DNA from: Bacteroidota bacterium
GTDB lineage: Bacteria; Bacteroidota; Bacteroidia; Bacteroidales; Paludibacteraceae
Assembly (NCBI GenBank): GCA_021779195.1
Contig: JAJYBB010000005.1
Span: forward strand, 1 to 64,000
Length of the DNA: 64,000 bases
Reading direction: 5' to 3'
In this document: piece after piece, positions 25,624 through 48,937 of the stretch
How the letters are laid out: every line of letters starts with the position of its first letter
How positions within the stretch are numbered: the first letter of the stretch is position 1
Translations under genes and position numbers: made by a program
Notes under the pieces: model-generated
What the model was told of the DNA's origin: nothing
What the model saw: the letters and a program-made list of their open reading frames with translations, nothing else
Database searches by the model: none

Positions 25624-25632
25624 ATTTCCAAC

Positions 25633-25711: not shown

Positions 25712-25753
25712 ATTGGCACAGAAGGAAGCCCAATCGCCGAAAACTATATCAAT

Positions 25754-26448: not shown

Positions 26449-27430
26449 TAATTGTGTACAGCCGTCAGATCTGGCGGCTCAGATATTATCCAAAACGCAT
26501 TATGGCATTGGAATTTATGCACATATATTGAGATTGTATTATCCAAATAAAACAGTCCTCTCCCTTTCGGGGAGGACTTGTTTGCCAACAAAGAACCCAT
26601 TCAATGCCGACAAGCCGACACTGAATATTTTCATTGAGAAAGAGAATGTATTGGGTAATGCTTGGGATAAAGAGTTTGCACGACATGAGGACGCCCAAAA
26701 CGCTATTCCTGCCGGTGATTCATTCGACTTTGCCGAACTTCATTACAAACAGTCAGGCGATGAACTATTACAAACCCTTAATAAGGAAATGAATTTGCAT
26801 ATCGGTGAAAAATTTGATTTCTACAAAAACCGAAATAATCCGGACAATCAAAGCAATCATTCAAATCATAGTTCAGACATTGTGGTGAGGCATTTTTCTT
26901 TCTTCAAAGCTCCTGTTCGGAATACAATTCCTCACAAGTCAATTACCTTGTTTGATGCCTACAATTACATTGTCGGTGATTACGCAAAACAACGAACGGA
27001 AAAACTGCGGAATATAAAAGACCCTAAGCAAGCCCGGCAATACAAAGCCTCAACATTCGATTACTGTACTTTTTCAGGAATGTTTCAAACCCGAAACGAC
27101 AAAGCACTCATAAGCCATTCCGGCTTATTGTGTATTGATTTTGACCATTTGCAAAGCGTTGATCTGCTTCGCAAGCAACTTTTGCAAGATGAATACTTTG
27201 AAACGCAATTGCTTTTCGTTAGCCCTTCCGGCGATGGATTGAAATGGATAATCTCAATTGACACAAAACAATCAACCCACAGCAATTATTTCGCTGCAGT
27301 TGCAAATTACATTCTACGAACCTACGGTGTTGAGGTTGACAAATCAGGGCGGGATATATCCCGCGCCTGCTTTCTGCCATACGACCCGCAGGCATACATT
27401 AATCCACTTTACAAACCTTCAACTAAATAA
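26438..27430 (+). CDS. AEP-type primase (VirE N-terminal / BT4734-like)
   Basis: 330 residues from ATG 26438. The second half is an archaeo-eukaryotic-primase-like domain of the BT4734/VirE-N type. It has the metal motif DFD (234-236, in LLCIDFDHL), SPSGDGLKW (262-270) and the third acidic site around Asp301-Asp306 (DKSGRDISRACFLPYDP). The first 150 residues (SKTHYGIGIYAHILRLYYP, then GRTCLPTKNPF) form a separate domain often fused to it. It probably synthesises primers or replicates the element. The sequence near its start contains a 20-base palindrome (26460-26479) and a GC-rich hairpin (26555-26578), both translated in frame. The stop is two bases before the next ATG. Confidence 0.82.
   Translation: MGNNNCVQPSDLAAQILSKTHYGIGIYAHILRLYYPNKTVLSLSGRTCLPTKNPFNADKPTLNIFIEKENVLGNAWDKEFARHEDAQNAIPAGDSFDFAELHYKQSGDELLQTLNKEMNLHIGEKFDFYKNRNNPDNQSNHSNHSSDIVVRHFSFFKAPVRNTIPHKSITLFDAYNYIVGDYAKQRTEKLRNIKDPKQARQYKASTFDYCTFSGMFQTRNDKALISHSGLLCIDFDHLQSVDLLRKQLLQDEYFETQLLFVSPSGDGLKWIISIDTKQSTHSNYFAAVANYILRTYGVEVDKSGRDISRACFLPYDPQAYINPLYKPSTK
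26460..26479. repeat. In-gene 20-base palindrome, copy 1
   Basis: AGCCGTCAGATCTGGCGGCT, near-perfectly self-complementary, inside the 5' end of the primase gene. A sister copy lies at 27500-27519. Confidence 0.8.
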
Positions 27431-27432
27431 TT

Positions 27433-29473: not shown

Positions 29474-29519
29474 TTTGGTTATTCAAATATTGTTTGTAAT
29501 TTTGCGAACAACAAACAAT
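29474..29519 (+). promoter_or_regulatory. arsR1 promoter and overlapping operator
   Basis: The promoter is TTTG (29474-29477), 19 bases, TAATTTTG (29497-29504). A perfect 9-base inverted repeat, ATTGTTTGT (29489-29497) and ACAAACAAT (29511-29519), overlaps the -7 box and start point, as expected for ArsR autorepression. The same sequence with few changes lies at 31530-31560. Confidence 0.82.
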
Positions 29520-29534
29520 AAAGATAATCAAATC

Positions 29535-29867
29535 ATGGATTGCACTAACAATACCAACAATACGCCTGACAATGAAACTATTGCCCGCTTTGCTAAAGCA
29601 ATGGGACACCCTACCCGCATTGAAATCCTGCGCTTTCTTGCTTCGCTGGACAGCTGCTATTTCGGCGACATTCACAACGAACTGCCAATTTCCAAAGCAA
29701 CTGTTTCTCAACATTTGAAAGAATTAAAAGATGCAGGATTGATACAAGGTGAAATTGAAACCCCAAAAGTAAAGTACTGTATCAATCGTGAGAATTGGGA
29801 AAAGGCACAATCTTACTTCGTTCAATTTTTCAGTTTAAAACACGACAAAACTTCATGTTGCAAATAA
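29535..29867 (+). CDS. arsR: ArsR-family metalloregulator 1
   Basis: A winged-helix repressor that leaves DNA when it binds As(III) or a related metal. 110 residues from ATG 29535; an upstream in-frame ATG at 29475 lies inside the promoter and cannot be used. Domains: helix HPTRIEILRFLASLDSCYFG, then recognition helix [19 protein letters not shown], then the wing. Candidate metal ligands are Cys3, Cys38 and the C-terminal TSCCK pair. It heads an operon with a thioredoxin-like protein, ArsF, ArsG and a BFD protein. Confidence 0.93.
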   Translation: MDCTNNTNNTPDNETIARFAKAMGHPTRIEILRFLASLDSCYFGDIHNELPISKATVSQHLKELKDAGLIQGEIETPKVKYCINRENWEKAQSYFVQFFSLKHDKTSCCK

Positions 29868-29892
29868 ATAATCATATAAATATTTTATCGTT

Positions 29893-30141
29893 ATGAACAT
29901 TCAGGTATTGGGTACGGGCTGCCCTAAATGTAAAACGCTCGAAAAAATAACCCGTGAAGTAGTGGCAGAAGCGGGTATTGATGCCAACATAACTAAAGTG
30001 GAGGACATTGTAGAAATTATGAAATTCAATGTAATGACCACACCAGCTTTGGTGGTTGACGGTAAAGTAGTATTAAAAGGTCGCGTACCTTCCAACAGCG
30101 AGTTAAAAGAAATTCTAACCAATAAAGTATTCAGAATATGA
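29893..30141 (+). CDS. Small redox-active disulfide (thioredoxin-like) protein
   Basis: 82 residues with the whole thioredoxin-fold core. Redox pair Cys10/Cys13 (GTGCPKC) and the cis-proline segment MTTPALVVDG match the thioredoxin_3 (TM0996/MTH895) family. Cytoplasmic; it probably passes electrons to an arsenic-handling enzyme or to the ArsG membrane protein encoded two genes on. It overlaps arsF by four bases (ATGA). Confidence 0.88.
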   Translation: MNIQVLGTGCPKCKTLEKITREVVAEAGIDANITKVEDIVEIMKFNVMTTPALVVDGKVVLKGRVPSNSELKEILTNKVFRI

Positions 30142-30566
30142 AAAAGTTGATTTTAGCTTCCGTAGCAATATTGCTTATTGCCTCTTTTTTTACTGTAAAT
30201 GCGGGCAGTCCCGCAACCAAATCAGCTCCGGCAACTTCAAGCGTTGCAAAAGTAGAAGTATATTATTTCCATTTCACCCGCCGTTGTGTTACCTGTCAGG
30301 CTGTTGAGACTGAATCTCAAAAAGCCATTGCCGCTCTTTATCCGGCTCAATATAAATCGGGTAAAATCATTTTCAAATCGCTTAACTTAGACGAAAATAC
30401 CAGTAAAACATTAGCCGAAAAATGCAAAGCTGAAGGACAGCAGCTTTTAATTATCAGCGGTAACAAACGCTTCGACCTCACCGAACAAGGGTTTATGTAC
30501 GCCAGAAGCAACCCCGACAAACTGAAACAGGAACTTAAAACTACAATTGATCCGTTAATCAAATAA
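30138..30566 (+). CDS. arsF: ArsF-like periplasmic protein
   Basis: 142 residues with a signal peptide (KKLILASVAILLIASFFTV) and a thioredoxin-like body holding RRCVTCQAVE. It resembles the family labelled nitrophenyl compound nitroreductase subunit ArsF, found beside ArsG in organoarsenical operons. No cofactor site can be seen, so its exact reaction is uncertain; with two cysteines in CVTC it may take part in thiol exchange across the membrane. It is coupled to the preceding gene and seven bases from arsG. Confidence 0.8.
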   Translation: MKKLILASVAILLIASFFTVNAGSPATKSAPATSSVAKVEVYYFHFTRRCVTCQAVETESQKAIAALYPAQYKSGKIIFKSLNLDENTSKTLAEKCKAEGQQLLIISGNKRFDLTEQGFMYARSNPDKLKQELKTTIDPLIK

Positions 30567-30573
30567 TCAGGAT

Positions 30574-31275
30574 ATGGAGTTTTTACAAAGTGTATTAGAT
30601 AACTCTCAATATGCGTTTATTACAGCTTTTGTGTTGGGGCTAATGACAGCCATTAGTCCCTGCCCATTGGCAACGAATATTTCTGCTATCGGCTTTATTA
30701 GCCGTGACATTGAGAATAGACAAAAAGTGTTTATAAACGGTTTTGTTTACACATTGGGTCGGGCATTCAGCTACACCTTATTAGCGGTCGTTATCTTCTT
30801 TGGTGCAAGTAAATTAAATATATCTATGTTGTTTCAGGGTTGGGGCGAAAAACTGTTAGGTCCTGCACTGATTCTAATTGGATTGTTTATGCTCGATGTG
30901 ATTAAGCTCAAATTCCCGGGCTTTTCCAGTCTCACAGATAAGTTGGGCGAAAAAAGCAAAGGAAGCTACTGGGGTACTTTCTTCTTGGGAGTTGTTTTTG
31001 CATTGGCATTTTGTCCTTATAGTGGAGTGCTGTATTTTGCTATGCTCATACCAATGACCGTAGCCAGTGCAAGCGGACTTTATCTACCCATAGTTTTTGC
31101 CACAGCTACCGGATTGCCGGTTATTCTTTTTGCGTGGCTATTGGCTTATGCAGTGGGTAATGTTGGTACACTATACAACAGTATCAAAGTATTCGAGTTA
31201 TGGTTTCGCAGGGTGGTATCTGTCGTATTTATTTTAGTGGGCATTTATTATATAGTAATCTTATTCGCAAAGTGA
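30574..31275 (+). CDS. arsG: ArsG-like (CcdA/DsbD-type) membrane transporter
   Basis: 233 residues, six or seven membrane helices, related to the CcdA/DsbD transmembrane domain. Conserved cysteines lie in ISPCPLATN (near residue 28) and FCPYSGVLYF (near 148), the two positions used by CcdA for electron transfer. The family name in arsenic operons is aminobenzylarsenical efflux permease ArsG. Given the adjacent cytoplasmic thioredoxin and periplasmic ArsF, an electron shuttle across the membrane is an equally reasonable role. Confidence 0.83.
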   Translation: MEFLQSVLDNSQYAFITAFVLGLMTAISPCPLATNISAIGFISRDIENRQKVFINGFVYTLGRAFSYTLLAVVIFFGASKLNISMLFQGWGEKLLGPALILIGLFMLDVIKLKFPGFSSLTDKLGEKSKGSYWGTFFLGVVFALAFCPYSGVLYFAMLIPMTVASASGLYLPIVFATATGLPVILFAWLLAYAVGNVGTLYNSIKVFELWFRRVVSVVFILVGIYYIVILFAK

Positions 31276-31278
31276 GTT

Positions 31279-31509
31279 ATGGATGAAATTATATGCTATT
31301 GCAAGCAAATAACAAAGAGTGAAATCGAAAAAGCAATTTCCGAAGGAGCTAAAACATTGAAGGATATTCAGGAAATAACAGGAGCTTGTACCGGAAACCA
31401 GTGCAAAGAACTGAACCCGTCGGGCAAATGTTGCTCGTCTGAAATTAATGCCATGTTGCCAACAAAGGGGTTTACATTAAATACCCCTTGCGGTTGCAGC
31501 CACTGCTGA
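31279..31509 (+). CDS. BFD-like [2Fe-2S] protein
   Basis: 76 residues matching the BFD-type iron-sulfur fold: CYC near residue 6-8 and CTGNQC near 38-43 as ligands. An extra C-terminal cysteine-rich tail follows (GKCCSSE, then TPCGCSHC). The tail is longer than usual and could bind metal or arsenite. It follows arsG by three bases, last gene of the first ars operon. A role as electron carrier fits the family; the tail is unexplained. Confidence 0.82.
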   Translation: MDEIICYCKQITKSEIEKAISEGAKTLKDIQEITGACTGNQCKELNPSGKCCSSEINAMLPTKGFTLNTPCGCSHC

Positions 31510-31529
31510 AGCTAAAAAAATTTGCTCTT

Positions 31530-31560
31530 ATTGTTCGTCATTTTACGAACTACAATCATA
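31530..31560 (+). promoter_or_regulatory. Second copy of the ArsR1 operator
   Basis: ATTGTTCGTCATTTTACGAAC and following bases align with the arsR1 operator (29489-29519), with about 5 differences in 26 positions. TTCGT and ACGAA keep the inverted symmetry. It precedes the ArsP-like gene at 31582. No TTTG is found at the -33 position, so promoter strength is unclear. Confidence 0.6.
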
Positions 31561-31581
31561 AAACCAATAAAAATAAAAAAT

Positions 31582-32601
31582 ATGAAACTCAACAAAAACA
31601 TAATCATTCCCCTGCTGCTATTACCAATCTGGTATTTAGTTTACAGCAATCTTCAACCTGCAACCGATTGGGTTATTGATTCAGCCTTTGGATTGGCCAA
31701 AGGTGCCCATTTGACGGAAACCTTGCGGTTTTTTATTTTCGAATTTCCCAAGGTGCTAATGCTCTTGGTTCTCATTATTTTCTTTGTGGGAATACTCCGC
31801 AGCTTCTTTACTCCTGAGCGAACCCGCAAAGCTTTAGAAGGTAAAAGAACTTTTACAGGTAATGTAATGGCTTCATTGCTAGGCATTGTAACCCCTTTCT
31901 GTTCCTGCTCCGCTATCCCGTTATTTCTTGGTTTTGTGGAGTCGGGTGTACCGTTAGGCATAACATTCTCTTTTCTTATTGCAGCTCCAATGATCAACGA
32001 AGTGGCGGTTATTCTTCTGTACGGGATGTTTGGTTGGAAAACAGCAGTAATATACATTGCTACCGGACTTACAATAGCAATCATAGCCGGTTGGATTATT
32101 GGAAAACTGAAACTCGAAAAATGGGTGGAAGAATGGGTTTACGCCTCACACATGGGCAATGCTGATGAAGAAGAAGAAAAACTCACCCTTTCAGTTCGTA
32201 TCAAAATGGGCTACGATGCAGTAAAAGATATAGTGGGCAAAGTTTGGCTGTATGTTGCTTTGGGTATCGCCGTTGGTGCGGGAGCTCACGGCTATGTCCC
32301 CTCCGAGTTTATGGCTTCGTTCATGGGCAAGGATGTTTGGTACGCCGTCCCTCTTTCGGTTCTCATTGGTATTCCGTTATATTCCAACGCTGCGGGTATC
32401 GTTCCTATTGTTTCGGTATTAATTGAAAAAGGAGCTTCATTGGGTACAGCTTTGGCATTTATGATGTCAGTTATTGCCCTATCATTGCCCGAAATGATTA
32501 TACTTCGTAAAGTTCTGAAAATGCCGTTGATTCTTACCTTTATTGCCATTGTTGGCGGTGGAATTATGATAGTTGGTTTCTTGTTCAATCTAATATTTTA
32601 A
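31582..32601 (+). CDS. ArsP-like permease
   Basis: 339 residues from ATG 31582, about ten membrane helices, of the ArsP/DUF318 permease family. The hallmark TPFCSCSAIPLF (near residue 110) carries the paired cysteines that bind trivalent (organo)arsenicals or metals. A second conserved block, IGIPLYSNAAGIVPI, is near residue 260. It likely exports methylated or organic arsenic, which fits arsM later in the cargo. The start was chosen because the upstream extension is operator sequence. A cytoplasmic acidic loop (GNADEEEEK) separates the halves. Confidence 0.86.
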   Translation: MKLNKNIIIPLLLLPIWYLVYSNLQPATDWVIDSAFGLAKGAHLTETLRFFIFEFPKVLMLLVLIIFFVGILRSFFTPERTRKALEGKRTFTGNVMASLLGIVTPFCSCSAIPLFLGFVESGVPLGITFSFLIAAPMINEVAVILLYGMFGWKTAVIYIATGLTIAIIAGWIIGKLKLEKWVEEWVYASHMGNADEEEEKLTLSVRIKMGYDAVKDIVGKVWLYVALGIAVGAGAHGYVPSEFMASFMGKDVWYAVPLSVLIGIPLYSNAAGIVPIVSVLIEKGASLGTALAFMMSVIALSLPEMIILRKVLKMPLILTFIAIVGGGIMIVGFLFNLIF

Positions 32602-32613
32602 AACAACTTTGTT

Positions 32614-32838
32614 ATGAAGATCAAAAAGAAAAATGAAATGAAAATCACCTTAATCATTATGGTTTTGGTAATGACCTTTGTGGTCACATTCGTAAGTGTG
32701 TCGGTCAATTTTGGCTATCAAACAGGGTTTGTTGCTAAATGGCTAAAATCATGGGGGCTTGCTTACGCAGTTGCTCTTCCGGTAGTACTGGTAATAATGC
32801 CTCTTATCAAAAGGGGAATAGCGAGATTTATACAATAA
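32614..32838 (+). CDS. DUF2798-like small membrane protein
   Basis: 74 residues (or 66 from the second ATG at 32638) with two membrane helices: ITLIIMVLVMTFVVTFVSVSVNFG and LAYAVALPVVLVIMPLIKRGIARFI apart by a short WLKSWG turn. The pattern matches DUF2798, often found near transport genes with unknown role. Twelve bases after the permease. Confidence 0.75.
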   Translation: MKIKKKNEMKITLIIMVLVMTFVVTFVSVSVNFGYQTGFVAKWLKSWGLAYAVALPVVLVIMPLIKRGIARFIQ

Positions 32839-32856
32839 TCAAGTAAAATAAAAAAT

Positions 32857-33930
32857 ATGAAAAAGTTTTTAATTATTTCGCTTATCAACTTCTTGTGCTC
32901 GTCGTTATTTGCTCAAACAAATGACTCTATATTCAAATCTTATGGTAAACCTGTTGTTCAGGTTTTTGCGTATTCAAAATATGACGTAAGCGAAAATGCA
33001 AAACAGCCTATTAGTTTTGGTATTACCCGTGCTCATATTGGTTACCAGTACAACTTTTCCAAAGAGTTAATGGGTACTGTCATTGCCGATTTAGCAGGAA
33101 GAACAACCTCAACAGACATTATGGTAACTGATGCAAACGGCAAACAATTAACCGTGACCAATTCAGGTAAAGAAGGTAGCTACTATACCGCCTTTCTAAA
33201 ATTTGCATACCTTCAATGGAAACCGTCAGATAAACTTACGTTACAATTTGGAGGTATATTACAAAATCATTATATCACTCAGGAAAATTTTTGGGGATAT
33301 CGCTATGTCTATGAAACTTTTCAGGATAGGTATTACGGAACGGCAAGCGGTGATTTCGGAGCTATTGGTTATTACAAGATAAATAAAATTGTAAATATAG
33401 ATGTAGCAGTTACCAACGGCGAAGGAATACGATTCAGTCAGGACAAATATGGAAAAGTAAAAGTAGCAACAGGTGTTGATGTAAGACCGGTTAAGGGAAT
33501 GATACTCCGATTGTACTACGACAACACTTCAACTGGCGATACAGTCAACAGTGCTACACAACATTTGTTTTCGGTATTTACCGGCTATCAACTTGACAAG
33601 CATTTCAGGGTAGGAGCCGATATTAATTATAGACACAACAATTTAAATGTCAGCAATCATAATTTTGGAGGTTATTCAGTTTTTGGAACTTACATAGTGA
33701 GTCCAAAAATCGAACTCTTTGCTCGCTTCGATAAAGTTCTATCAAATACACTTACAGGAAAAACTCAAAATTGGAATCTTTCAAAAGATGGGCAGGCATA
33801 TATTGTTGGGTTCCAATATCAACCGGCTAAAACTGTAAATATTTCACTAAATTATCAGGCTTGGAACCCGGAAGATAAAACTATGAATATGACAAATATA
33901 ATTCAATTTAATACAGAGTTTAAATTTTAA
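32857..33930 (+). CDS. Outer-membrane porin
   Basis: 357 residues with a signal peptide (MKKFLIISLINFLCSSLFAQ) and alternating beta strands throughout. Segments such as GITRAHIGYQYNFSKELMG and YLQWKPSDKLTLQFGG, and the terminal Phe (NTEFKF), are typical of a 14-16 strand barrel. It resembles phosphate-selective porin O/P relatives. In this cargo it may give an outer-membrane exit or entry path for arsenic or phosphate-like anions; the substrate is not readable. Confidence 0.83.
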   Translation: MKKFLIISLINFLCSSLFAQTNDSIFKSYGKPVVQVFAYSKYDVSENAKQPISFGITRAHIGYQYNFSKELMGTVIADLAGRTTSTDIMVTDANGKQLTVTNSGKEGSYYTAFLKFAYLQWKPSDKLTLQFGGILQNHYITQENFWGYRYVYETFQDRYYGTASGDFGAIGYYKINKIVNIDVAVTNGEGIRFSQDKYGKVKVATGVDVRPVKGMILRLYYDNTSTGDTVNSATQHLFSVFTGYQLDKHFRVGADINYRHNNLNVSNHNFGGYSVFGTYIVSPKIELFARFDKVLSNTLTGKTQNWNLSKDGQAYIVGFQYQPAKTVNISLNYQAWNPEDKTMNMTNIIQFNTEFKF

Positions 33931-33933
33931 AAT

Positions 33934-34308
33934 ATGGAAACAAAAAATCAAACCACTTTCCTTTGTGGCACAAGCGAATACAATGTGGTCAGCTGCTCGG
34001 GTGCTTCAGATTTAGGGCAATTATCGGATGTCATAGCCCGCAAACTTCGTGACAATAAGGTTCGCAAAATGAATTGTCTTACTCTGATTGCCATTGACGA
34101 TCTGCATTTGATTGAAGCCTTCAAAAAAGCAAATGTCTTGGCCATTGATGGTTGTCCCAGAGACTGTGCAAAAAAGATTCTGGGAAAAGCCGGGATTGAG
34201 AATTTCAACCATTTGCGCCTAACTGATTTGGGTTACAAAAAAGGAGAAACGCCCCTAACCGGAAATGTAATTAATGCAGTGTATGAAAAGGCTGAAATTA
34301 TCCATTAA
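33934..34308 (+). CDS. Putative zinc-binding DGC-domain protein
   Basis: 124 residues with the conserved cysteines of the DGC family: CSGASDLGQLSD near residue 21, KMNCLTL near 48, and the name-giving IDGCPRDCAKKIL near 72-84. Homologues occur in arsenic and metal clusters. A role in metal binding or electron transfer is inferred from the cysteines. The start of the next gene overlaps its 3' end by 35 bases. Confidence 0.8.
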   Translation: METKNQTTFLCGTSEYNVVSCSGASDLGQLSDVIARKLRDNKVRKMNCLTLIAIDDLHLIEAFKKANVLAIDGCPRDCAKKILGKAGIENFNHLRLTDLGYKKGETPLTGNVINAVYEKAEIIH

Positions 34309-34780
34309 AGCCAAACAAACGCTATCGGTAATATTTTTGATTTTATCGGTAGCGTTTATGGTACTCATTTTTAGCTTCAAAAATGAGCTTACTGAATATG
34401 CCTCCCGGCTGGTTAAATCGCAATCAACAATCGATAGCACAAATAAACTCTCATTGAGGGTCGATTCTGCATTTAATTACCGTCAAAACAAACTTGCTTA
34501 TAAAGTCACTTTCCTTGAATTTGGTGCAACTGGTTGCTCTGCCTGTAAACGAATGGAAACGGTAATGAGAGAAATTCGGACTCAATATACTGGCAAAGTG
34601 AATGTCATATTTCTAAACATTTTGCTACCCGAAAATCAGGACTTAATGAAGTTCTATGGCATTGCCGCCATACCCACACAAGTATTGCTGAACGATGAAG
34701 GAAAAGAGTTCTTCAGGCATACCGGGTACTTTCCAGAAAATGAGTTGATAAAAATATTGAAAAGTAAGGGCGTCAAATAA
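34274..34780 (+). CDS. Membrane-anchored thioredoxin-like protein
   Basis: 168 residues (ATG 34274, or 34283) with one N-terminal membrane helix (TLSVIFLILSVAFMVLIF) and a periplasmic thioredoxin fold. The redox motif is CSACK (GATGCSACKRME) and the cis-proline loop is IAAIPTQVLL. It probably reduces periplasmic disulfides and is a natural partner for the CcdA-like ArsG. It ends the second ars operon, just before the ArsR2 operator. Confidence 0.85.
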   Translation: MQCMKRLKLSIKAKQTLSVIFLILSVAFMVLIFSFKNELTEYASRLVKSQSTIDSTNKLSLRVDSAFNYRQNKLAYKVTFLEFGATGCSACKRMETVMREIRTQYTGKVNVIFLNILLPENQDLMKFYGIAAIPTQVLLNDEGKEFFRHTGYFPENELIKILKSKGVK

Positions 34781-34916: not shown

Positions 34917-35261
34917 ATGACAAAATCAGAAGTATTTGAAAAAGAGCTACAAGAGTTAGCCACATTTGCCAAAGTAATCTCACACCCTGCACGTTTGGCA
35001 ATTCTAAAGTATTTGGCAGAAACTAAAACTTGCATTTCAGGAGATATTTCCGACAAATTACCATTGAGCCGCACTACCGTTTCGCAACATTTAAAAGAAT
35101 TGCGTGATATGGGATTGATTCATGGCGAAATTGATGGAATGAAAATCAATTATTGCTTGTGTGGTACTTGCATTGCCGAAAAATTGGAACTGTTCGATAA
35201 CTTTTTCACCCAAATAAAAGCGGTTGACATAAACTGCTCAAATGAAAACCATTGTAATTAA
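34917..35261 (+). CDS. arsR: ArsR-family metalloregulator 2
   Basis: 114-residue winged-helix repressor. Recognition helix [19 protein letters not shown] follows [21 protein letters not shown]. Candidate metal ligands are the Cys in KTCISG and the pair in YCLCGT; the C-terminus has DINCSNENHC. Residues 1-85 are nearly identical to ArsR3 (41701), and both genes have the same operator type, so this is a within-element duplication. It heads the operon with the Cys-tailed lipoprotein, ABC transporter and P-type ATPase. Confidence 0.93.
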   Translation: MTKSEVFEKELQELATFAKVISHPARLAILKYLAETKTCISGDISDKLPLSRTTVSQHLKELRDMGLIHGEIDGMKINYCLCGTCIAEKLELFDNFFTQIKAVDINCSNENHCN

Positions 35262-35293
35262 ACTAATTACCAAACAATTTTAAAAAAATCATT

Positions 35294-36127
35294 ATGAAAG
35301 TCTCAAAGAAATTGCAGCTACTATCGTTGCTTTTAGTAGTAATCACATGCAATGCCTGTGCAAACCCTAAAAAAGAAAGCAATCAGGTAAATTCTCAAAA
35401 CAGTGCCAATCAACAAGCACAGGCAAAACATACAGCGAAGGAGAGATCTCCCTTACATGCCGAACTGGATAAGGCTAAAGCAGCGGGCAAAGCGGTTTTT
35501 GTTGTTGTTACCGGAACAGGTGCAGCCGATCTGAATAAAGCAATGTCAGTAGCCAAAAACGCAACTTCCATATATAAAAATGCCGTAGTGATTCAAATGA
35601 ATAGAGACTTACCTGTAAATGCCGATTTAGTAAGCGAATGGAGATTAGCAGGAGCCCCTGTTCCACTCATATTGGTTATTTCTTCAAAAGGTCAACCAAC
35701 AGGAGGTTATGTTCTTGCCGATGCTACGGCCGATAAAATTGCAGCTCTTGTCCCCTCCCCAAAACTGGAAGAAGTATATGCAGCAATTGCCAGCAGCAAA
35801 CATGCAATTGTAGTATTTACGAAGAAATCATTTGTTGATAAAACAAAAGTGATAAAAATTGCCAAAGATGCTGTGTTTAAATTAAATAACGAAGCCGTGT
35901 TTGTTGAAGTTGATATGGACGACAGCAAAGAGAATGGTTTCATGAACCAGCTTCGTATAGACAAATTATCTACGAAAGCAAGCATTACCATAGTAATCAA
36001 TAAACAGGGACAAGTTGCAGGCACATCTACTACTGTACCCGATGCAGGGAAATTAGTTACGGCAGCAAAAACTCCTGTCAGGGGTGGTTGTGGCCCAGGA
36101 TGTGGCCCTGCTGGTTGCGGTAGATAA
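35294..36127 (+). CDS. Lipoprotein with two thioredoxin-like halves and a CGPGCG tail
   Basis: 277 residues. The signal peptide ends in a lipobox (VITCNAC region), followed by a Gln/Asn/Lys linker. Two thioredoxin-like domains (about 60-150 and 155-260) lack CxxC pairs. The C-terminus is RGGCGPGCGPAGCGR, three cysteines in a flexible tail that looks made for metal or arsenite binding. The same GCGPGC motif occurs in the 59-residue protein before the P-type ATPase (38822), so the two probably handle the same ligand. Placed outside the inner membrane, it could be a periplasmic carrier. No characterised homologue is known to me. Confidence 0.72.
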   Translation: MKVSKKLQLLSLLLVVITCNACANPKKESNQVNSQNSANQQAQAKHTAKERSPLHAELDKAKAAGKAVFVVVTGTGAADLNKAMSVAKNATSIYKNAVVIQMNRDLPVNADLVSEWRLAGAPVPLILVISSKGQPTGGYVLADATADKIAALVPSPKLEEVYAAIASSKHAIVVFTKKSFVDKTKVIKIAKDAVFKLNNEAVFVEVDMDDSKENGFMNQLRIDKLSTKASITIVINKQGQVAGTSTTVPDAGKLVTAAKTPVRGGCGPGCGPAGCGR

Positions 36128-36222
36128 TTCCCAAAAGACTATTTCAAACTTACACATATTATTTTACATACAGAGTGTGCTATGGATGATATGCCATTTT
36201 TACACTTACAAATTAATAAATT

Positions 36223-37431
36223 ATGAGATTAATAGATTTAACATTAAAAGAGCTTTGGCACCGAAAATCGCAGCTTGTTTCGGGCTTATTAGCTATTACG
36301 CTGGGTATTGGTGTAATCGTGGGTATTCGTTCATTTTCAGTTGTATCAGAAAAAGCGGTAGCCGTGAATCTGGACAATTTAGGTGCAAATATTTTGGTGC
36401 TACCGCAGTCCTCTAGCGTTGACAATTATTATGCCGCTGATATTGACGCTTCTACATTCCCCGAAGAATACGTGGAAAAATTGGTAACATCTACCATTCC
36501 CGGTGTCGATAATATATCTCCAAAACTAACCAGAAGGGTTAAGGTTGGAAATGAAAATATTGTACTTACCGGAATCTTGCCCAAAAGCGAAATAGCTTCA
36601 AAACCTATTTGGCAAAGAGGAGGGATACAAGGCCAACAAGCAGCCGCAAGCTGTGCTCCATCGGGTCCTAAAAAATATGCCGATGCAAAATTGCAACGAA
36701 AAGGGATTGATACATTAGCTAATAACGATTGCTTTATTGGTTCTGGTATTGCTTTGAGACTCAAACTAAAGGAAGGTAGTAAATTAACCATAATGGACAA
36801 GGAGTTCACTGTTGCTAAGTTATTACCCGAAACCGGTACTGTTGATGACGATAGAGTGTTTGCAAACCTGCACACCGTTCAAGCTCTTTTAGGTACTGGC
36901 GAACAAATCAGTGCTATCGAAATTATGGGCTGTTGCAGCTCAATATCTGAGGGTCTTTTAGGCAAACTTCGTAATGTTCTACCCGACACGCGTATTACTA
37001 CTATCGGCCAGATTGTTTCTACACAAATAGAAAATAACAAGTTGATGAGTAAAATATCGTTGGTATTTCTGATTATCATCGTTTTTGTCGGCGGTATTTC
37101 CATTGGTAACTACATTTGGGGTAATGTGAACGAACGCCGCAAAGAAATTGGAATACTACGCATGATTGGCTACCACAAACGCCACATTTATTATATTTTG
37201 GTGTTGAAAGCTCTTCTAATGGGCTTAGTGGGTGGCATTGCCGGATATATTTTGGGTACTTTAGGCGCTATGTGGCTTGGACCACAATTTTCCGGAATCG
37301 CAGTAAGCCCCATTTATATGTACTTTTTTTACTCTATTGTTGTTGCAATTTTAATTTCGATAATAGGTTCTCTCATCCCTGCATACATGGCCGGTAAAAT
37401 AGAACCTTTTTCAAATATGCAGGAAGATTAG
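36223..37431 (+). CDS. ABC transporter permease (FtsX/MacB-like)
   Basis: 402 residues. One N-terminal helix (SGLLAITLGIGVIVGI), a large periplasmic domain (about 45-270) and three C-terminal helices make the MacB/LolC topology. The ERRKEIGILRMIGY coupling segment, typical of FtsX permeases, is near residue 303. Unusual are cysteines in the periplasmic part: AASCAPSG near 145 and MGCCSS near 240. With the ATPase next door it would act as a mechanotransmission-type exporter; in this setting a metal- or thiol-related substrate is inferred. Confidence 0.85.
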   Translation: MRLIDLTLKELWHRKSQLVSGLLAITLGIGVIVGIRSFSVVSEKAVAVNLDNLGANILVLPQSSSVDNYYAADIDASTFPEEYVEKLVTSTIPGVDNISPKLTRRVKVGNENIVLTGILPKSEIASKPIWQRGGIQGQQAAASCAPSGPKKYADAKLQRKGIDTLANNDCFIGSGIALRLKLKEGSKLTIMDKEFTVAKLLPETGTVDDDRVFANLHTVQALLGTGEQISAIEIMGCCSSISEGLLGKLRNVLPDTRITTIGQIVSTQIENNKLMSKISLVFLIIIVFVGGISIGNYIWGNVNERRKEIGILRMIGYHKRHIYYILVLKALLMGLVGGIAGYILGTLGAMWLGPQFSGIAVSPIYMYFFYSIVVAILISIIGSLIPAYMAGKIEPFSNMQED

Positions 37432-37468
37432 ACAATTTTCAAATTAACTTATTTTCAAATAAAAAATT

Positions 37469-38149
37469 ATGCTGATACAAATAAAAAATCTTACCAAAAC
37501 ATATCAACGCCACGATGGGGCTATCAACGCAGTTGATAATCTTTCTCTTGATATTCCTAAAGGTTCGTTTGTCACTATTACAGGTGCTTCGGGTTCGGGA
37601 AAAACAACTTTGCTTTTGATTTTGGGCGGTTTACTGCAACCTACTTCAGGTAAAATGAGCTACAATGCCAGAGAATTAGACTTACTCAAAGAAAAGGACA
37701 TGGCTACTTTCCGCAGCAATCATGTAGGTTTCGTTATGCAGAGCTTCGCTCTTGTTCCTTACCTTACAGCTCTGGAAAACATTTCTATTGCTTTAAATGT
37801 GAAAGATAAGGACAATGATAAAAACCGAAAACGAGCTTTACAACTGCTGGAATGGGTTGGTCTAGACGACCGCACTACCCATTATCCCAAAGAACTTTCG
37901 GCGGGTCAGCAACAACGGGTAGCCATAGCCCGGGCATTGGCCAACAATCCTGATTTATTGCTTGCCGACGAACCAACCGGCAATCTGGATCCAACCCTGT
38001 CGGAAGAAATTCTGGGCGTTTTAAAAGAGATAAACCAAAAACAGGGAACCACTGTAGTAATGGTAACGCACAGCCCGGCAGCTGCCGAATACGGCGATAC
38101 AAAAATTCAACTCAAAAACGGTAAATTACATACCAACGAAAAAGTATAA
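37469..38149 (+). CDS. ABC transporter ATP-binding protein (LolD/MacB type)
   Basis: 226 residues with Walker A GASGSGKTT (39-47), Q loop (MQSFALVPYLTALENIS), signature LSAGQQQRVAIARAL (signature residue order changed to SAGQQ), Walker B LLLADEPTGNLD and H loop MVTHSP. It pairs with the FtsX-like permease 37 bases upstream. Confidence 0.93.
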   Translation: MLIQIKNLTKTYQRHDGAINAVDNLSLDIPKGSFVTITGASGSGKTTLLLILGGLLQPTSGKMSYNARELDLLKEKDMATFRSNHVGFVMQSFALVPYLTALENISIALNVKDKDNDKNRKRALQLLEWVGLDDRTTHYPKELSAGQQQRVAIARALANNPDLLLADEPTGNLDPTLSEEILGVLKEINQKQGTTVVMVTHSPAAAEYGDTKIQLKNGKLHTNEKV

Positions 38150-38239
38150 TCACATGAAACACCCATGCCCAAATAAAGAGTTTGAGCACACAAGGGGATG
38201 ATTACAAAATTAAACTATCTTCACATCCCCTCCTTCTTT

Positions 38240-38262
38240 CGCCCTCTCCTTTGATAGGAGAG
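38240..38262 (+). repeat. GC-rich hairpin before the DUF1573 gene
   Basis: CCCTCTCCT / AGGAGAGGG, a perfect 9-base stem with a 5-base loop, in the leader of the next gene. It is of the same style as the hairpins inside the replication genes. There is no T run, so a terminator role is doubtful. Confidence 0.6.
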
Positions 38263-38304
38263 GGTTGTGGGGAGGTCCGGCTTGGGGAGGCTAATTATAA
38301 ACAC

Positions 38305-38706
38305 ATGAAAAAGCTTGCAGTTATTCTATTTTTTTTCAGCTTTGCTTCGTTGAGCTTATTCGCTCAAAAGCAACAACAAATTAGCCAAAGTGATTCAATC
38401 ATTTTCACTGAGTTGATTCATGATTATGGCACTATTGATGTCGGCAGTCCGGGGCATTGTGAATTCAAATTTACCAACGGAATGAAAACACCTTTGGTAG
38501 TTAGTAACGTAAAACCTTCGTGCGGGTGTACCGTTGCCGACTGGACAAAAGAGCCAATCTTACCCGGAAAAACAGGAGTGATTAAACTTAATTACAATAC
38601 CAAAATACCGGGTACTTTCAGTAAGACAATTACAGTGAATTCAAATGCAAAAAATTCAACGGTAATTTTGCAGATTAAAGGGAATGTAATTACACCTAAA
38701 CAATAA
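38305..38706 (+). CDS. DUF1573 periplasmic protein
   Basis: 133 residues from ATG 38305; the upstream open extension is hairpin sequence and not protein-like. The signal peptide is KKLAVILFFFSFASLSLFAQ. The Ig-like DUF1573 domain has HDYGTIDVGSPGHCEFKFTN and NVKPSCGCTVADW. The CGC motif and the extra Cys in GHCEF could bind metal. The family is common in Bacteroidota envelopes with no settled function. Confidence 0.85.
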   Translation: MKKLAVILFFFSFASLSLFAQKQQQISQSDSIIFTELIHDYGTIDVGSPGHCEFKFTNGMKTPLVVSNVKPSCGCTVADWTKEPILPGKTGVIKLNYNTKIPGTFSKTITVNSNAKNSTVILQIKGNVITPKQ

Positions 38707-38821
38707 ACTAATTATATATCTCTAAAACTAACAAAGCAATTATATGAATTGCAAACAATGTATATGTGGCAATAACGTGTGAAGTGGCATATTTTCAGTC
38801 TAACAATAAAAATTTGAAAAA

Positions 38822-39001
38822 ATGGAAGCAAGCAAAAAACAACAAAAAAAGAAGGTACTCTGGTCATTAATAAAACAATCTTTCGACAAGTCGAGTAGTG
38901 GTTGTGGCCCTGGGTGTGGATGTAACACCGAACAAAAAAAAGAAACTGAAAAACAAAATAATGAAGAGCAACTTCAGGAAAAGAAGGCAAACGAAAAATG
39001 A
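38822..39001 (+). CDS. Small Cys-rich protein coupled to the P-type ATPase
   Basis: A 59-residue, strongly basic and acidic protein (KKQQKKKVLW start, Glu/Lys/Gln-rich tail) with a central SSGCGPGCGCN cluster: three cysteines in six residues. There is no signal peptide, so it is cytoplasmic. Its TGA stop overlaps the ATG of the ATPase (ATGA at 38998-39001), which indicates translational coupling. That ATPase lacks the usual N-terminal metal-binding domain, and this protein may act as a separate metal chaperone for it. The motif matches the lipoprotein tail at 36090. Confidence 0.75.
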   Translation: MEASKKQQKKKVLWSLIKQSFDKSSSGCGPGCGCNTEQKKETEKQNNEEQLQEKKANEK

Positions 39002-40902
39002 ATACAAAGGATACAAATAAAGCAACCTATTCTTTTCAAGAGATTATAGTATTTGCACTTGCACCTATTATAGTAGGGCTTTTAACTTTGGGGGCATGGC
39101 TCTTTAAGCATTTTGAAGTATTTAATCCCTATTTATATATCGTACTGGCAGTATTGGCTACAATTTTCGGGGGATATCAGCGTTTTCGGGCTGGCTTTCG
39201 CGATGCGTTTAAACGGAAAATAACGGTGAATGTTTTTGTTACATTTGCTATAATTGTTACAGTGGCAGTCGGCGAATTTTTACCAGCGGCAGTGATTATA
39301 CTTATCATGGCTGTAGTAGGCTCATTAGAAGCCTACACTCTTGACAAAACGAGAAAGAGCATAAGTGGCTTACTTGATTTAACGCCAGCTAAAGCAAATG
39401 TCAAACAGGGTGATATCGAAATATCCGTTGAAGTAAGCAAATTACAAACAGGTGATGTTGTAGTTGTAAGACCCGGCGAACGTATTCCTGTAGATGGTAT
39501 CGTTATTGCAGGGAGCGCATCGGTCAATCAGGCTCCTATAACAGGCGAATCTATTCCTGTTGAGAAATTCAAAGGCAACGAAGTTTTTGCCGGAACATTA
39601 AACGAAAGTGGAAGACTGGAAATTCAAACCTCAAAAGTAGGCAAAGAAACTACCCTTGCTAAAATTGTCCATCTTGTTGAGGAAGCGCAAGAATCAAAGG
39701 CTCCGATACAAACCGTTGCTGACCGTTTCACCACCTGGTTTTTCCCCATTGTAATTGGTCTGGCTGTTATTGGATATTTCTTAAGTGGCGAAATTAAAGT
39801 AGCAGTTGCTATATTGCTGGTTGCCTGTCCTTGTGCATTTGCTATTGCCACACCGTCAGCAGTTGCAGCAGGTATTGCTAATATGGCTCGCAGGGCTGTT
39901 TTAATAAAAGGGGGTGTCTTCTTTGAAATAGCTGGAAAAATAAATTGTTTGGTTGTTGACAAAACCGGCACTCTCACCATTGGCCACCCAAAAGTAATGA
40001 ATATTATTGGCTTAAATGGTTTGTCTGAAGCCGAAGTGCTTAAATTAGCGGCCATTGGTGAAAAGTATTCAGAACATCCTTTGGCAAAAGCTATTTTAAT
40101 TATTGCCCGTTCACAATCAATTGAAATACCCGACCCGGATGATTTTAAATCGGAAGTTGGAAAAGGGATTGAAGCCAGTTACAATGGTCAGAAAATATTG
40201 ATTGGTAAAGAAGATTTACTAAAAGAACATAATATTATAATCAGCCAGGCAGTTCAGGAAAAAATTACCCAACAGTCTGATTTGGGGCGTACAACTATTT
40301 TAATAGCTAATAACAACGAAATTGTCGGAATTATATCCATTGCGGATGAAGTTCGACCCGAAACTATTCATTCAATTAGTTCCTTAAAAAATCTTGGCAT
40401 TAAGAACATTGTTATGCTTACCGGCGACCACCATAAGGTTGCCAAAGCGGTAGCTGAACAGATTGGAATTGAAGATTACAAGGCGGAACTTCTACCCCAT
40501 GATAAGCAAGCAGCAATTAAAGCTTTGAAAAATGAAGGGAAAATTGTTGCAATGGTTGGCGATGGAATCAATGATGCACCAGCACTTGCACTTGCCGATG
40601 TGGGTATCGTAATGGGGGGAACTGGTTCAGATATTGCTATTGAAGCCGCTGATGTAACCTTGATGGATGGGAGTTTTGCCCGTTTGGTAGAGTTTATTCA
40701 AATATCAAGAAAAGTATTAAGACGTATCAAACTAAATATTTTTTTCTCTATCATCTACAATGTTATTGGTCTTGTTTTGGCATTATTAGGTTATCTTACT
40801 CCCGTTATGGCTGTTATTTTCCAGGAAGCAGGCTGTGTAACCGTGGTGGTGAGTTCAACACTATTGCTTTGGGCAAAGATATCAGAACAGAAAAGACTTT
40901 GA
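38998..40902 (+). CDS. Heavy-metal P1B-type ATPase
   Basis: 634 residues. It lacks the N-terminal HMA or Cys-rich metal domain, starting almost at the first helix. Motifs: TGES (actuator, ITGESIPVEK), the transmembrane CPC metal site in LLVACPCAFAIATPSA, DKTGTLT (phosphorylation), SEHPLAKAI (the HP motif) and GDGINDAPAL. A cysteine in the last helix (FQEAGCVTVVV) may add to the metal site. CPC ATPases export Cu, Zn, Cd or Pb. Its own gene neighbours and ArsR control suggest soft-metal export. It has no separate promoter. Confidence 0.93.
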   Translation: MNTKDTNKATYSFQEIIVFALAPIIVGLLTLGAWLFKHFEVFNPYLYIVLAVLATIFGGYQRFRAGFRDAFKRKITVNVFVTFAIIVTVAVGEFLPAAVIILIMAVVGSLEAYTLDKTRKSISGLLDLTPAKANVKQGDIEISVEVSKLQTGDVVVVRPGERIPVDGIVIAGSASVNQAPITGESIPVEKFKGNEVFAGTLNESGRLEIQTSKVGKETTLAKIVHLVEEAQESKAPIQTVADRFTTWFFPIVIGLAVIGYFLSGEIKVAVAILLVACPCAFAIATPSAVAAGIANMARRAVLIKGGVFFEIAGKINCLVVDKTGTLTIGHPKVMNIIGLNGLSEAEVLKLAAIGEKYSEHPLAKAILIIARSQSIEIPDPDDFKSEVGKGIEASYNGQKILIGKEDLLKEHNIIISQAVQEKITQQSDLGRTTILIANNNEIVGIISIADEVRPETIHSISSLKNLGIKNIVMLTGDHHKVAKAVAEQIGIEDYKAELLPHDKQAAIKALKNEGKIVAMVGDGINDAPALALADVGIVMGGTGSDIAIEAADVTLMDGSFARLVEFIQISRKVLRRIKLNIFFSIIYNVIGLVLALLGYLTPVMAVIFQEAGCVTVVVSSTLLLWAKISEQKRL

Positions 40903-40904: not shown

Positions 40905-41375
40905 TTTTATTTGCGTTCTCCATGTACGCAGGAAATAGCCGTTTTCAAAGCATTTGCCGATATTGTGGAAAAAGCGGATAATGAAATCGTTGTTATTGAC
41001 ACAGCCCCAACCGGTCATACCTTGTTATTACTGGACGCAACCGAAAGTTATCACAAAGAAGTGGAACGTACTCAGGGCGAAGTCTCGGGTGCTGTTGCTC
41101 ATTTGCTGCCTCGTTTACGCAATTCATAGGAAACGGAAGTGGTTGTCGTTACCCTCCCTGAAGCAACCCCTGTATTTGAAGCTGAAAGGTTACAACTAGA
41201 TTTGCAACGTGCAGGTATTCACAATAAATGGTGGGTCGTAAATTCTTGTTTATCATTAACTCACACACAAAACCCATTTCTGCAAGCCAAAGCGCAAAGC
41301 GAATTAGCTTGGATTGAAAAGGTAAAACAATTATCAAATCGTAATACCGCTTTAATAGAGTGGAAAGATATCTAA
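40905..41375 (+). pseudogene. arsA: arsA remnant (arsenite-pump ATPase, C-terminal part)
   Basis: Three bases after the ATPase stop, a frame reads PCTQEIAVFKAFADIV, VVIDTAPTGHTLLLLDATES, then a TAG at 41127-41129. It continues in the same frame as EVVVVTLPEATPVFEAERLQ and NPFLQAKAQSELAWI to TAA 41373-41375. These are hallmarks of bacterial ArsA. The first two thirds, including the P loops, are missing, and some 80-100 residues seem lost between the two parts as well. It cannot make a working pump. The Acr3 gene is intact, so export can proceed without ArsA. Confidence 0.88.
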
Positions 41376-41700: not shown

Positions 41701-42027
41701 ATGATAAAATCAGAAGTATTCGTCAAGGAACTACAAGAACTGGCAACTTTTGCCAAACTAATTTCACACCCTGCACGGTTGGCAATTCTAAAATATCTGG
41801 CAGAAACCAAAACCTGCATTTCAGGCGACATTTCGGATAAATTACCATTAAGTCGCACTACAGTATCGCAACATTTGAAAGAATTACGCGATATGGGATT
41901 AATTCACGGTGAAATTGATGGATTGAAAGTTAGCTACTGCCTTTGTGGCACCGAGATAGAACGGTTTAAATCTACATTCTACAGTTTCTTTGATAAAATA
42001 GACTGTACCGATATTAATTGTAAATAA
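41701..42027 (+). CDS. arsR: ArsR-family metalloregulator 3
   Basis: 108-residue winged-helix repressor. Over residues 1-85 it differs from ArsR2 (34917) at only a handful of positions (for example [10 protein letters not shown] for TKSEVFEKEL). Metal ligands are probably the Cys in KTCISG and those in YCLCGT, plus Cys in DCTDINCK. It precedes arsC1, arsC2, arsM and acr3, the main inorganic arsenic operon. Identical operator architecture implies cross-regulation with ArsR2. Confidence 0.93.
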
Positions 42028-42038
42028 CTCCAATAATT

Positions 42039-42464
42039 ATGACTAAAACAAATGTATTATTCGTGTGCTTGCACAATTCCGCCCGTAGTCAGATGGCGGA
42101 AGCATTTCTTAATAAATTGGCTGGCGATAAATTCTTTGCCGAAAGCGCAGGTTTGGAAGCTGGCACAATTAACCCTTATGTTGTTCAGGTAATGCAGGAA
42201 GTAGGCATTGATATTTCTCAAAACAAGACCGATAGTGTGTTTGAATTCTTCAAACAAGGTCGATTATACGCTTATGTAATTGCGGTGTGCGATGCTGCAA
42301 GTGCCGAAAGATGCCCTATTTTCCCGGGAGTTTGTAACCGGCTTAATTGGTCATTTCCAAATCCGGCCGAGTTCAAGGGTACTGACGAAGAAATTTTAGC
42401 TGAAACCCGAAAAGTACGGGATATGATAAAAACCGAGATTGAAAAATTTATAGTAACATATTAA
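42039..42464 (+). CDS. arsC: Arsenate reductase-like LMW phosphatase 1
   Basis: 141 residues of the low-molecular-weight phosphatase fold. The P loop CLHNSARSQ (Cys10) starts the active site, and [13 protein letters not shown] near residue 88-100 holds one candidate resolving cysteine. [16 protein letters not shown] segment follows the catalytic Asp position. It reduces As(V) to As(III) for export. It differs clearly from the next gene (arsC2), so the pair is not a recent duplication. Confidence 0.88.
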
Positions 42465-42478
42465 AAATAAAAACAAAC

Positions 42479-42904
42479 ATGAAAGTATTAATTCTTTGCA
42501 CAGGCAACTCATGCCGTAGCCAAATGGCACACGGCTTTTTACAATCGTTCGACCCAACAATTACCGTTTGTTCTGCCGGTACACAAGCCTCTGGTAAACT
42601 AAATCAAAAAGCGGTTGCAGCTATGAAAGATGCGGGTATAGACATTAGCAACCACACTTCCGATTCGGTAGATAAATACCTGAAAGATGAATGGGATTAT
42701 GTAATCACGGTTTGCGGGGGTGCAAATGAAGAATGTCCTGCTTTTTTCGGAAAAGTGAAACACCGCTTACACATGGGTTACGATGATCCAAGCCACGCCG
42801 AAGGAACTGAAGAATTTATCTGGAGCGAATTTATCCGTGTTCGCGATGAAATCAAAGCGGGTTTTTACAAATTGTACATTGAACAAATTAAGCCGCAACT
42901 ATGA
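42479..42904 (+). CDS. arsC: Arsenate reductase, thioredoxin-coupled (ArsC 2)
   Basis: 141 residues with P loop CTGNSCRSQMA (Cys7 to Arg13) and the resolving pair in VCGGANEECPAF (near residues 80-88), the layout of thioredoxin-coupled ArsC. Catalytic Asp is in GYDDPSHAEGTEE. The stop overlaps the arsM start (ATGA at 42901-42904). Having two different reductases in series may widen the substrate or redox range. Confidence 0.92.
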   Translation: MKVLILCTGNSCRSQMAHGFLQSFDPTITVCSAGTQASGKLNQKAVAAMKDAGIDISNHTSDSVDKYLKDEWDYVITVCGGANEECPAFFGKVKHRLHMGYDDPSHAEGTEEFIWSEFIRVRDEIKAGFYKLYIEQIKPQL

Positions 42905-43704
42905 AAGCAACTGATTTAAAATTAGTCGTTCAGGAAAAATACGGCGAAATAGCTAAACAATCGAAGATTCAAAACGAATCTTCTTGTTGCGGTGCAACAA
43001 GTTGTTGTTCAACGGTTGATTATGCTGTATTTGCCGAGAATTACGACAAAGAAAATGGATATAACCCTGATGCCGACCTAGGATTGGGTTGCGGTATTCC
43101 TACCCAGTTTGCAAGCATTAAAGAGGGCGATTCTGTTCTTGACTTGGGGAGTGGTGCTGGCAATGATTGCTTTGTAGCTCGTGCTATTGTAGGCGAGAAT
43201 GGAAAAGTAACCGGTCTCGATTTTACCGATGCCATGTTGGAGAAAGCAAGAGCCAACAACGCTAAACTTGGATTCGCTAATGTGGAATTCGTAAAAGGCG
43301 ATATTGAAGAAATGCCTTTGCCTGATAACCAATTCGATGTAATAGTGTCTAACTGTGTGTTGAATCTGGTACCAGATAAACAAAAAGCCTTTGCGGAAAT
43401 GTACAGGGTATTAAAGCCCGGAGGACATTTTTGTGTTTCGGATGTAGTTATTCAGGGGCAATTACCCGAAGCCCTTCAAAAGGATGCCGAAATGTATGCC
43501 GGTTGTGTATCAGGGGCTATTCCTGTTTCCGAGTTTTTCGAAATAGTAAAGCAAATCTCCTTTCAGGATATTGTCGTACACAAACAAAAGGCAATTACAA
43601 TACCCGATGAAATTCTACTAACCTATCTCAATTCAAATGAATTGGATAAGTTCCACCGTAAAGAGATTGGAATCTTCAGTATAACCGTTTCCGCTAAAAA
43701 ATAA
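42901..43704 (+). CDS. arsM: Arsenite S-adenosylmethionine methyltransferase
   Basis: 267 residues. The N-terminus has cysteine pairs in SSCCGATSCCS (near 27-38). The SAM-binding motif VLDLGSGAGNDCF is near 79-91, and further conserved cysteines lie in SNCVLNL (near 149) and YAGCVSGAIP (near 201), the arsenite-binding residues of ArsM. It methylates As(III) to mono-, di- and trimethyl forms. This complements the ArsP-like permease, which may export methylated products. Confidence 0.95.
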   Translation: MKATDLKLVVQEKYGEIAKQSKIQNESSCCGATSCCSTVDYAVFAENYDKENGYNPDADLGLGCGIPTQFASIKEGDSVLDLGSGAGNDCFVARAIVGENGKVTGLDFTDAMLEKARANNAKLGFANVEFVKGDIEEMPLPDNQFDVIVSNCVLNLVPDKQKAFAEMYRVLKPGGHFCVSDVVIQGQLPEALQKDAEMYAGCVSGAIPVSEFFEIVKQISFQDIVVHKQKAITIPDEILLTYLNSNELDKFHRKEIGIFSITVSAKK

Positions 43705-43707
43705 ACT

Positions 43708-44757
43708 ATGCCGTCAAATAAAAAATTAAAGTTTCTCGACCGTTACTTAACCCTTTGGATTTTTCTTGCCATGTTTGCCGGTGTATTTATGGGTTGGTAC
43801 AGTCCGGGAGTAGCTCAGTTCTGGAATAAATTTTCAGTGGGCACCACCAACATTCCTATTGCCATAGGGCTTATTGTGATGATGTACCCGCCACTGGCTA
43901 AAGTGAGATACGAAGAATTGGGCGATGTTTTCAAGAACACTAAAATTCTGGGCTTATCATTAGTTCAAAACTGGATAATTGGTCCTGTGTTGATGTTCCT
44001 ATTAGCCATTATTTTTCTTCAGTTCAACATTGATTATATGTACGGTTTAATCCTGATTGGGTTGGCTCGTTGTATTGCAATGGTCATTGTGTGGAACGAT
44101 TTGGCTAAAGGTGACCGTCAATATGCTGCCGGACTGGTTGCTTTCAACTCACTTTTCCAGGTATTACTATTTTCAGTCTATGCTTATGTGTTTATTGCTG
44201 TTTTGCCGGGATGGTTTGGCTTGCCTGTCAACGATTCGGTTTCAAAAATAACCATGAGCGAAATTGCCAAAAGTGTATTTGTATATCTGGGCATTCCCAT
44301 GTTGGCAGGTTTTCTCACTCGTTTCATACTCATTCGGGTAAAAAATAAAACATGGTACGAAACCAAGTTTGTCCCTAAAATTAGCCCGCTAACGCTTATT
44401 GCATTACTATTTACCATTGTAGTGATGTTTTCGTTGAAAGGAGAATACATTGTAAAAATTCCGATGGATGTAGTCCGTATAGCAATCCCGTTGATTATTT
44501 ACTTTGTGCTAATGTTTGTGTTCTCATTTATTATGAGTAAAAAAATGGGAGCTAATTACGAGCAATCTACTACACTTTCATTCACCGCGGCCAGTAACAA
44601 TTTCGAATTAGCCATTGCAGTTGCAATCGCTATCTTCGGAATCAATTCCGGCGAAGCCTTCACGGCTGTTATCGGACCATTAGTGGAAGTCCCGGTAATG
44701 ATAGCGTTGGTGAATGTCGCTTTTTGGTTTCGCAAAAAGCTCTGGAATCAAAATTGA
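43708..44757 (+). CDS. acr3: Acr3 family arsenite efflux transporter
   Basis: 349 residues, ten helices, inner membrane. Family motifs are [12 protein letters not shown] in helix 1, [19 protein letters not shown] with the essential cysteine (near residue 121), and [18 protein letters not shown] near the end. It exports As(OH)3 using the proton gradient. It is the last gene of the operon, and a strong terminator follows at 44817-44845. Confidence 0.95.
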
Positions 44758-48917: not shown

Positions 48918-48937
48918 ATTTGTACCCTATTTGTACC
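48918..48937. repeat. Candidate right attachment site (direct repeat)
   Basis: ATTTGTACCCTATTTGTACC, in the same orientation as 22151-22170 with one mismatch. Chromosomal-type genes resume after it. Confidence 0.6.

Follow-up and report, generated by a model that had tools for sequence, protein, structure and literature searches.

Overall, we believe that the region described here is a modular arsenic and antimony island built of two modules and not a single relay, a reading that we regard as likely. Its firmest parts, in which we are highly confident, are the two-module structure itself and the identification of one module (module A) as an AntC-AntA pair, a small cysteine-rich protein encoded together with a P1B-type ATPase. 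The other, module B (34917-38149), is an ABC cassette in the order ArsR-LP-FtsX-LolD, in which LP is a lipoprotein-like secreted protein; it is recurrent in ars operons, conserved and apparently undescribed, and on balance we favour a metalloid-handling role for it. The preliminary description of this DNA had drawn these genes together as one ArsR-controlled relay for a metal or metalloid. A check of the open reading frames confirmed every frame and coordinate that it gave, and both the metalloid theme of the region and, as judged from gene order, control by ArsR find support; the relay itself does not. Coordinates (Table 1) are those of the window, by which we mean the whole stretch of 64,000 nucleotides that was analysed.

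Table 1. Features of the arsenic island, in window coordinates.
Feature	Coordinates	Strand	Remarks
Upstream ars genes	29475..34780	+	ArsR-like, thioredoxin_3 (ArsE-like), ArsF-like, ArsG-family transporter, BFD ferredoxin, ArsP_1 permease, DGC protein, thioredoxin
ArsR/SmtB-family repressor	34917..35261	+	NCBIfam HTH_metalloreg over cut-off; opens the cassette
LP, lipoprotein-like secreted protein	35294..36127	+	C-terminal end GGCGPGCGPAGCGR; tail Cys C266, C270, C275
FtsX/MacB-type permease	36223..37431	+	Pfam FtsX and MacB_PCD over cut-off
LolD/MacB-type ABC ATPase	37469..38149	+	Pfam ABC_tran 1e-34
DUF1573 protein, secreted	~38305..38706	+	Pfam DUF1573 112 bits
Transferred antCA block	38804..40886	+	DNA 95% identical to L005 9983-12065
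AntC-like 59-aa Cys protein	38822..39001	+	SGCGPGCGC core
AntA-like P1B-type ATPase	38998..40902	+	CPC in TM6, QEAGC in last transmembrane helix
arsA remnant, ArsA residues 418-571	40911..41372	+	Pfam ArsA_ATPase on fragment
Downstream ars genes	41701..44757	+	ArsR, two LMW-PTP/ArsC-like proteins, ArsM, ACR3

The seven genes at issue sit mid-way in a large arsenic island, whose downstream pump scores 455 bits as ACR3 and whose arsenite methyltransferase (ArsM) scores 341 bits, both over cut-off. An integrative element seems to carry the island. It adjoins mnmE/trmE (20604-22034), and its putative genes (window 20604-29220) comprise an HTH_17 protein, a tyrosine recombinase (23202-24320), and PriCT_2/DUF3987 and BT4734-like primase-type genes; its ends may be marked by the two copies of an imperfect 20-bp direct repeat, at 22151-22170 and 48918-48937, but the repeat is weak. 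A phage origin of the region was also considered and set aside, the viral-contig scan being without any match.

The identity of the 59-residue protein and the ATPase as an AntC-AntA pair is well supported by homology. An antimonite resistance operon of the form AntR-AntC-AntA has been described in Comamonas testosteroni, in two reports of 2021 by An et al. and Viswanathan et al. Among plasmids, the window ATPase matches four Enterobacter records at 68% identity, the next best lying at 44% or below, and the match to the plasmid ATPase encoded behind AntR extends over 637 columns at that same 68%. On plasmid pEhoE1-2, AntR is followed by a 62-residue SGCGPGCGC protein and then by the ATPase, with the last two genes joined by the same ATGA overlap that couples the small gene to the ATPase gene in the window, a coupling already pointed out in the preliminary description. 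The small proteins of the two loci share 61% identity over 28 residues (E 2e-14) around KASSGCGPGCGC, and the pEhoE1-2 AntR, annotated as an antimonite-responsive repressor, is identical to PDB 6uvu at 123 of 124 residues. Closer to home the ATPase is rare: it was found in 2 of 295 genomes of its own order at E < 1e-150, and its best match in the phylum sample has 39% identity. A search of the genome contigs for the AntC-like protein matched only the L005 locus, so its wider occurrence is known from the plasmids.

What this pair might do can be read from its cysteines and its neighbors. As had been noted, the CPC ATPase has no metal-binding domain of its own, neither an N-terminal HMA nor any other such domain in Pfam. 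The 20 other P1B ATPases placed in the alignment all lack the cysteine of its last-helix QEAGC; a copper, zinc or cadmium class was rejected for this ATPase, QEAGC being unlike the last-helix motif of those 20. Together, the CPC and the last-helix cysteine would offer three thiolates, an arrangement that would be suitable for Sb(III) or As(III). In the published system AntC is reportedly a metallochaperone, and the 59-residue protein probably acts as the chaperone that brings Sb(III)/As(III) to the pump, in keeping with the earlier view that the small protein serves the ATPase. The Enterobacter ludwigii plasmid pEL-ars2 encodes an AntC-like protein in frame after a full ArsD metallochaperone, and this independently points to metalloid hand-over. 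That locus (L092:9450-9983) is a possible ArsD-AntC fusion, and another ArsR family member stands there in place of AntR. AntC, a small cytosolic cysteine protein, would thus pass Sb(III), and probably also As(III), on to AntA, which would pump it from the cytosol.

The window pair shares with the Comamonas operon an SGCGPGCGC protein whose gene overlaps that of a CPC P1B ATPase by ATGA, and differs from it in its Bacteroidota host, in lying without AntR inside an ArsR-led ars island, and in abutting a broken arsA. No AntR was found in the window operon, and because the ArsR that opens the cassette is only 25% identical to AntR (in the HTH part), we class the pair as AntCA and not as a full antRCA operon. 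The statement that no described system has this composition therefore fails for the ATPase half of the region, which belongs to a known antimonite system; within the literature searched, it holds for the ABC half.

The antC-antA genes evidently move as a unit, and the island gained them as a mobile pair. A block of window DNA that opens 18 bases ahead of antC and closes shortly before antA ends is 95% identical to its counterpart in the L005 locus (genome G738), while the flanks lie at background, and this block stands after the DUF1573 gene in the window and after ACR3 in L005. The C-terminal quarter of arsA lies directly behind the window ATPase; it is 77% identical to the C-terminus of the L022 ArsA and has an in-frame stop near 41127. 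Since the block abuts this interrupted remnant, recombination into arsA is the most likely route by which antCA came in, apparently in place of the front part of that gene. The same pair of loci shows a second discontinuity: between window positions 35483-37432 and L005 4150-6069, DNA identity, at first about 50-70%, climbs to 86-95% at a point within the lipoprotein gene near 35630, a likely recombination breakpoint.

Turning to module B, searches with LP and with the permease found the LP-FtsX-LolD cassette, whole or as a contig-end part, in 28 Bacteroidota genomes. It is common in the window's order, with 25 of 393 genomes, and rare in the even phylum sample, with 3 of 395 (counted at E < 1e-30), one of these three being only a distant homologue. 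The cassette lies mostly within ars operons: ACR3 is near it in 23 of the 28 loci, with most exceptions at contig ends, and ArsR is upstream of LP in 22 of the 25 loci that have an upstream flank, so that the order ArsR-LP-FtsX-LolD is nearly constant. The DUF1573 gene, which 6 of the 28 loci have next to LolD or close to it, is an occasional companion. Two loci, L053 (G812) and L054 (G796), hold ArsR-LP-FtsX-LolD with no other ars gene inside the locus and are minimal stand-alone versions. No account of an FtsX/LolD cassette within ars operons came up in our literature searches; the operon of the Arsenicibacter ArsR is arsRMC and has no ABC genes.

The permease and ATPase have the make-up of a type VII ABC system (MacB/LolCDE-like), namely an FtsX-like permease with a periplasmic domain, here of MacB type, and a LolD/MacB-type ATPase, and the permease profile matches the MacB, LolF and LolC structures in the PDB. 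The periplasmic cysteines of the permease that had been described as unusual are indeed there, and they are conserved: all 28 permeases have four (C144, C170, C237 and C238) and no others. These invariant cysteines, a separately encoded ATPase, the link to ars operons and a partner, LP, from an unnamed family set the cassette apart from MacB, LolCDE and BceAB, and its scores fall below the LolC, LolD and MacB cut-offs (LolCE, 43 of 362 bits; LolD, 228 of 308 bits). Nor does it resemble a tripartite MacAB-TolC pump, the ATPase and permease being separate and no adaptor or TolC recurring beside the cassette, and no dedicated outer-membrane partner is constant in module B. Distant permease relatives with CxxC instead of GCC occur on Pelobacter plasmid pPRO1 (L018/L014) and in G348 (L025); they adjoin FtrD-like/DUF2318, heavy-metal P-type ATPase or CusA-type genes and hint at a broader FtsX family linked to metals.

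Pfam contains no family specific to LP. The two halves of the protein are mutual repeats (hhalign, probability 97.7), and 10 of 21 members match Thioredoxin_6, weakly (best 5.8e-6). Structure models of LP and of the permease, built from two-row alignments of the window and L005, are of low confidence (mean pLDDT 39 and 37), so the thioredoxin-like assignment rests on profiles. LP is thus predicted to consist of two thioredoxin-like domains followed by a C-terminal tail; neither domain has a conserved CxxC, and the conserved cysteines are in the tail. There, all 25 complete members have exactly three cysteines in the last 22 residues, spaced variably as CC...C, CAPGAC...C or CGPGC...C, and such a trio would be suited to bind As(III) or Sb(III) as a trithiolate. 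Position 190 (about 35861-35863), which lies in the second domain, is cysteine in 23 of 26 members and alanine in the window's clade; this cysteine is a possible fourth ligand or redox partner.

These features allow a model of module B to be put forward, tentatively, in which ArsR-LP-FtsX-LolD works as a machine that uses ATP to rid the periplasm of As(III), Sb(III) or the thiol adducts of either. LP, periplasmic or membrane-anchored, would hold the metalloid through its three tail cysteines, and the four periplasmic cysteines of a LolD-driven FtsX dimer would take the metalloid, or a thiol adduct of it, off LP; alternatively, the dimer would eject either of these towards the outer membrane in a MacB-like manner. 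Module B would in this way clear what ACR3, ArsP and AntA release into the periplasm, as a second stage after inner-membrane efflux. The substrate, the direction and every transport step in this scheme are what we infer; export by module B is, in our judgment, possible rather than probable, and membership of ars operons is no proof that arsenic itself is the substrate.

The main rival for the cassette is a redox reading, in which FtsX-LolD would supply the periplasm with cysteine, glutathione-like thiols or reducing equivalents, with LP and thioredoxins kept reduced and binding or reducing arsenicals. The thioredoxin-like character of LP would fit such a role, as would an island rich in thioredoxins that also encodes an ArsG/DsbD_2 protein and an ArsF-like protein, and so would the distant permease relative that lies on pPRO1 beside FtrD-like (DUF2318) and heavy-metal proteins. 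We nonetheless find it doubtful, as LP lacks a CxxC and its three tail cysteines look more like a trithiolate site than a disulfide pair, while permeases of the FtsX/MacB type handle substrates that are periplasmic or carried in lipid and are not known to transfer small thiols across the membrane. The redox reading does have a precedent in the fetMP-fetABCDEF iron cluster of Campylobacter, where FetBCD (ABC), FetA (DUF2318) and the thioredoxins FetEF form one functional cluster for which a reducing-power relay has been proposed (PMC10783030). Both clusters are metal-related and combine an ABC transporter with thioredoxin-like proteins, whereas the window cassette has a single permease, an ars and not an iron context, an LP without CxxC, and no DUF2318.

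A second alternative, which we think unlikely, is that the cassette transports no metalloid at all, and that FtsX-LolD either releases LP to the outer membrane, as a Lol system would, or senses metalloid-loaded LP in the manner of Bce systems. The similarity to LolD and to LolC/LolF points this way, as does a lipobox-like cysteine in LP of the window's close clade. Few other members have this cysteine, however, and most apparently carry a plain signal peptide. The LolD score under the family cut-off and the lack of a histidine kinase or sensor partner in the cassette likewise argue against a Lol-like or Bce-like function. Membership in the Sec-assisted organometallic (SAO) system was rejected separately, with SaoE and SaoA/SaoT scores far below their cut-offs. 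There is some likeness, in that an ArsP_1 permease lies nearby (134 bits to SaoE, below cut-off) and a protein with a Cys tail, encoded together with ABC genes, is reminiscent of SaoC; against this, no SaoL, SaoC, SaoP or SaoB was found among the proteins tested, and LP ends in a three-Cys tail and not in Cys-Cys-COOH.

There remains the relay, in which the small protein would load the ATPase and a lipoprotein tail of the same motif would accept the ligand outside, the whole being one co-evolved system. Its starting point is sound. The CGPGCG motif is present in both the LP tail and the 59-residue protein; it is coded at two sites in the window against none in 100 shuffles, and the 3.1-Mb genome encodes it nowhere else. 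The CGPGCG form of the tail is, moreover, found in both genomes that carry AntCA: among the 28 cassette genomes, whole-genome searches placed the motif, and an AntA orthologue, only in the window genome and G738. In the lipoprotein family at large, however, the three tail cysteines are conserved and the exact motif is not, and given the variable spacing of these cysteines CGPGCG is one local wording of the three-Cys tail. Because both the motif and any AntA orthologue are missing from 26 of the 28 cassette genomes, the cassette and AntCA are independent of one another, and the two motif proteins, whose regular separation the preliminary description had named as grounds for abandoning the relay, are found apart in most genomes. 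We therefore regard the relay as very improbable, given also that the tail is worded otherwise in those 26 genomes, that the Enterobacter plasmid AntC-AntA loci have neither LP nor the surrounding cassette, and that the antCA block was inserted separately, as a discrete unit, at two different positions. The sharing of the motif is best explained as a coincidence of neighborhood, by local LP ancestry plus the arrival of antCA and not by joint function, since a same-genus relative without AntCA (L019) already has the nearly identical tail CGSGCGPAGC and the block was placed independently.

The two modules of the island thus carry separate implications. AntCA extends the antimonite pump to Bacteroidota, and it is seen here as a minimal two-gene unit that moves and lands in existing arsenic operons. 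As for module B, the bacterial pumps known for arsenite and antimonite work at the inner membrane, and to our knowledge the fate of metalloids in the periplasm of gram-negative cells has hardly been addressed. A three-Cys carrier encoded with an ABC cassette in ars operons is a concrete and testable candidate for periplasmic metalloid handling and, if our model is true, would provide Bacteroidota with a second-stage clearance after efflux by ACR3, ArsP or AntA.
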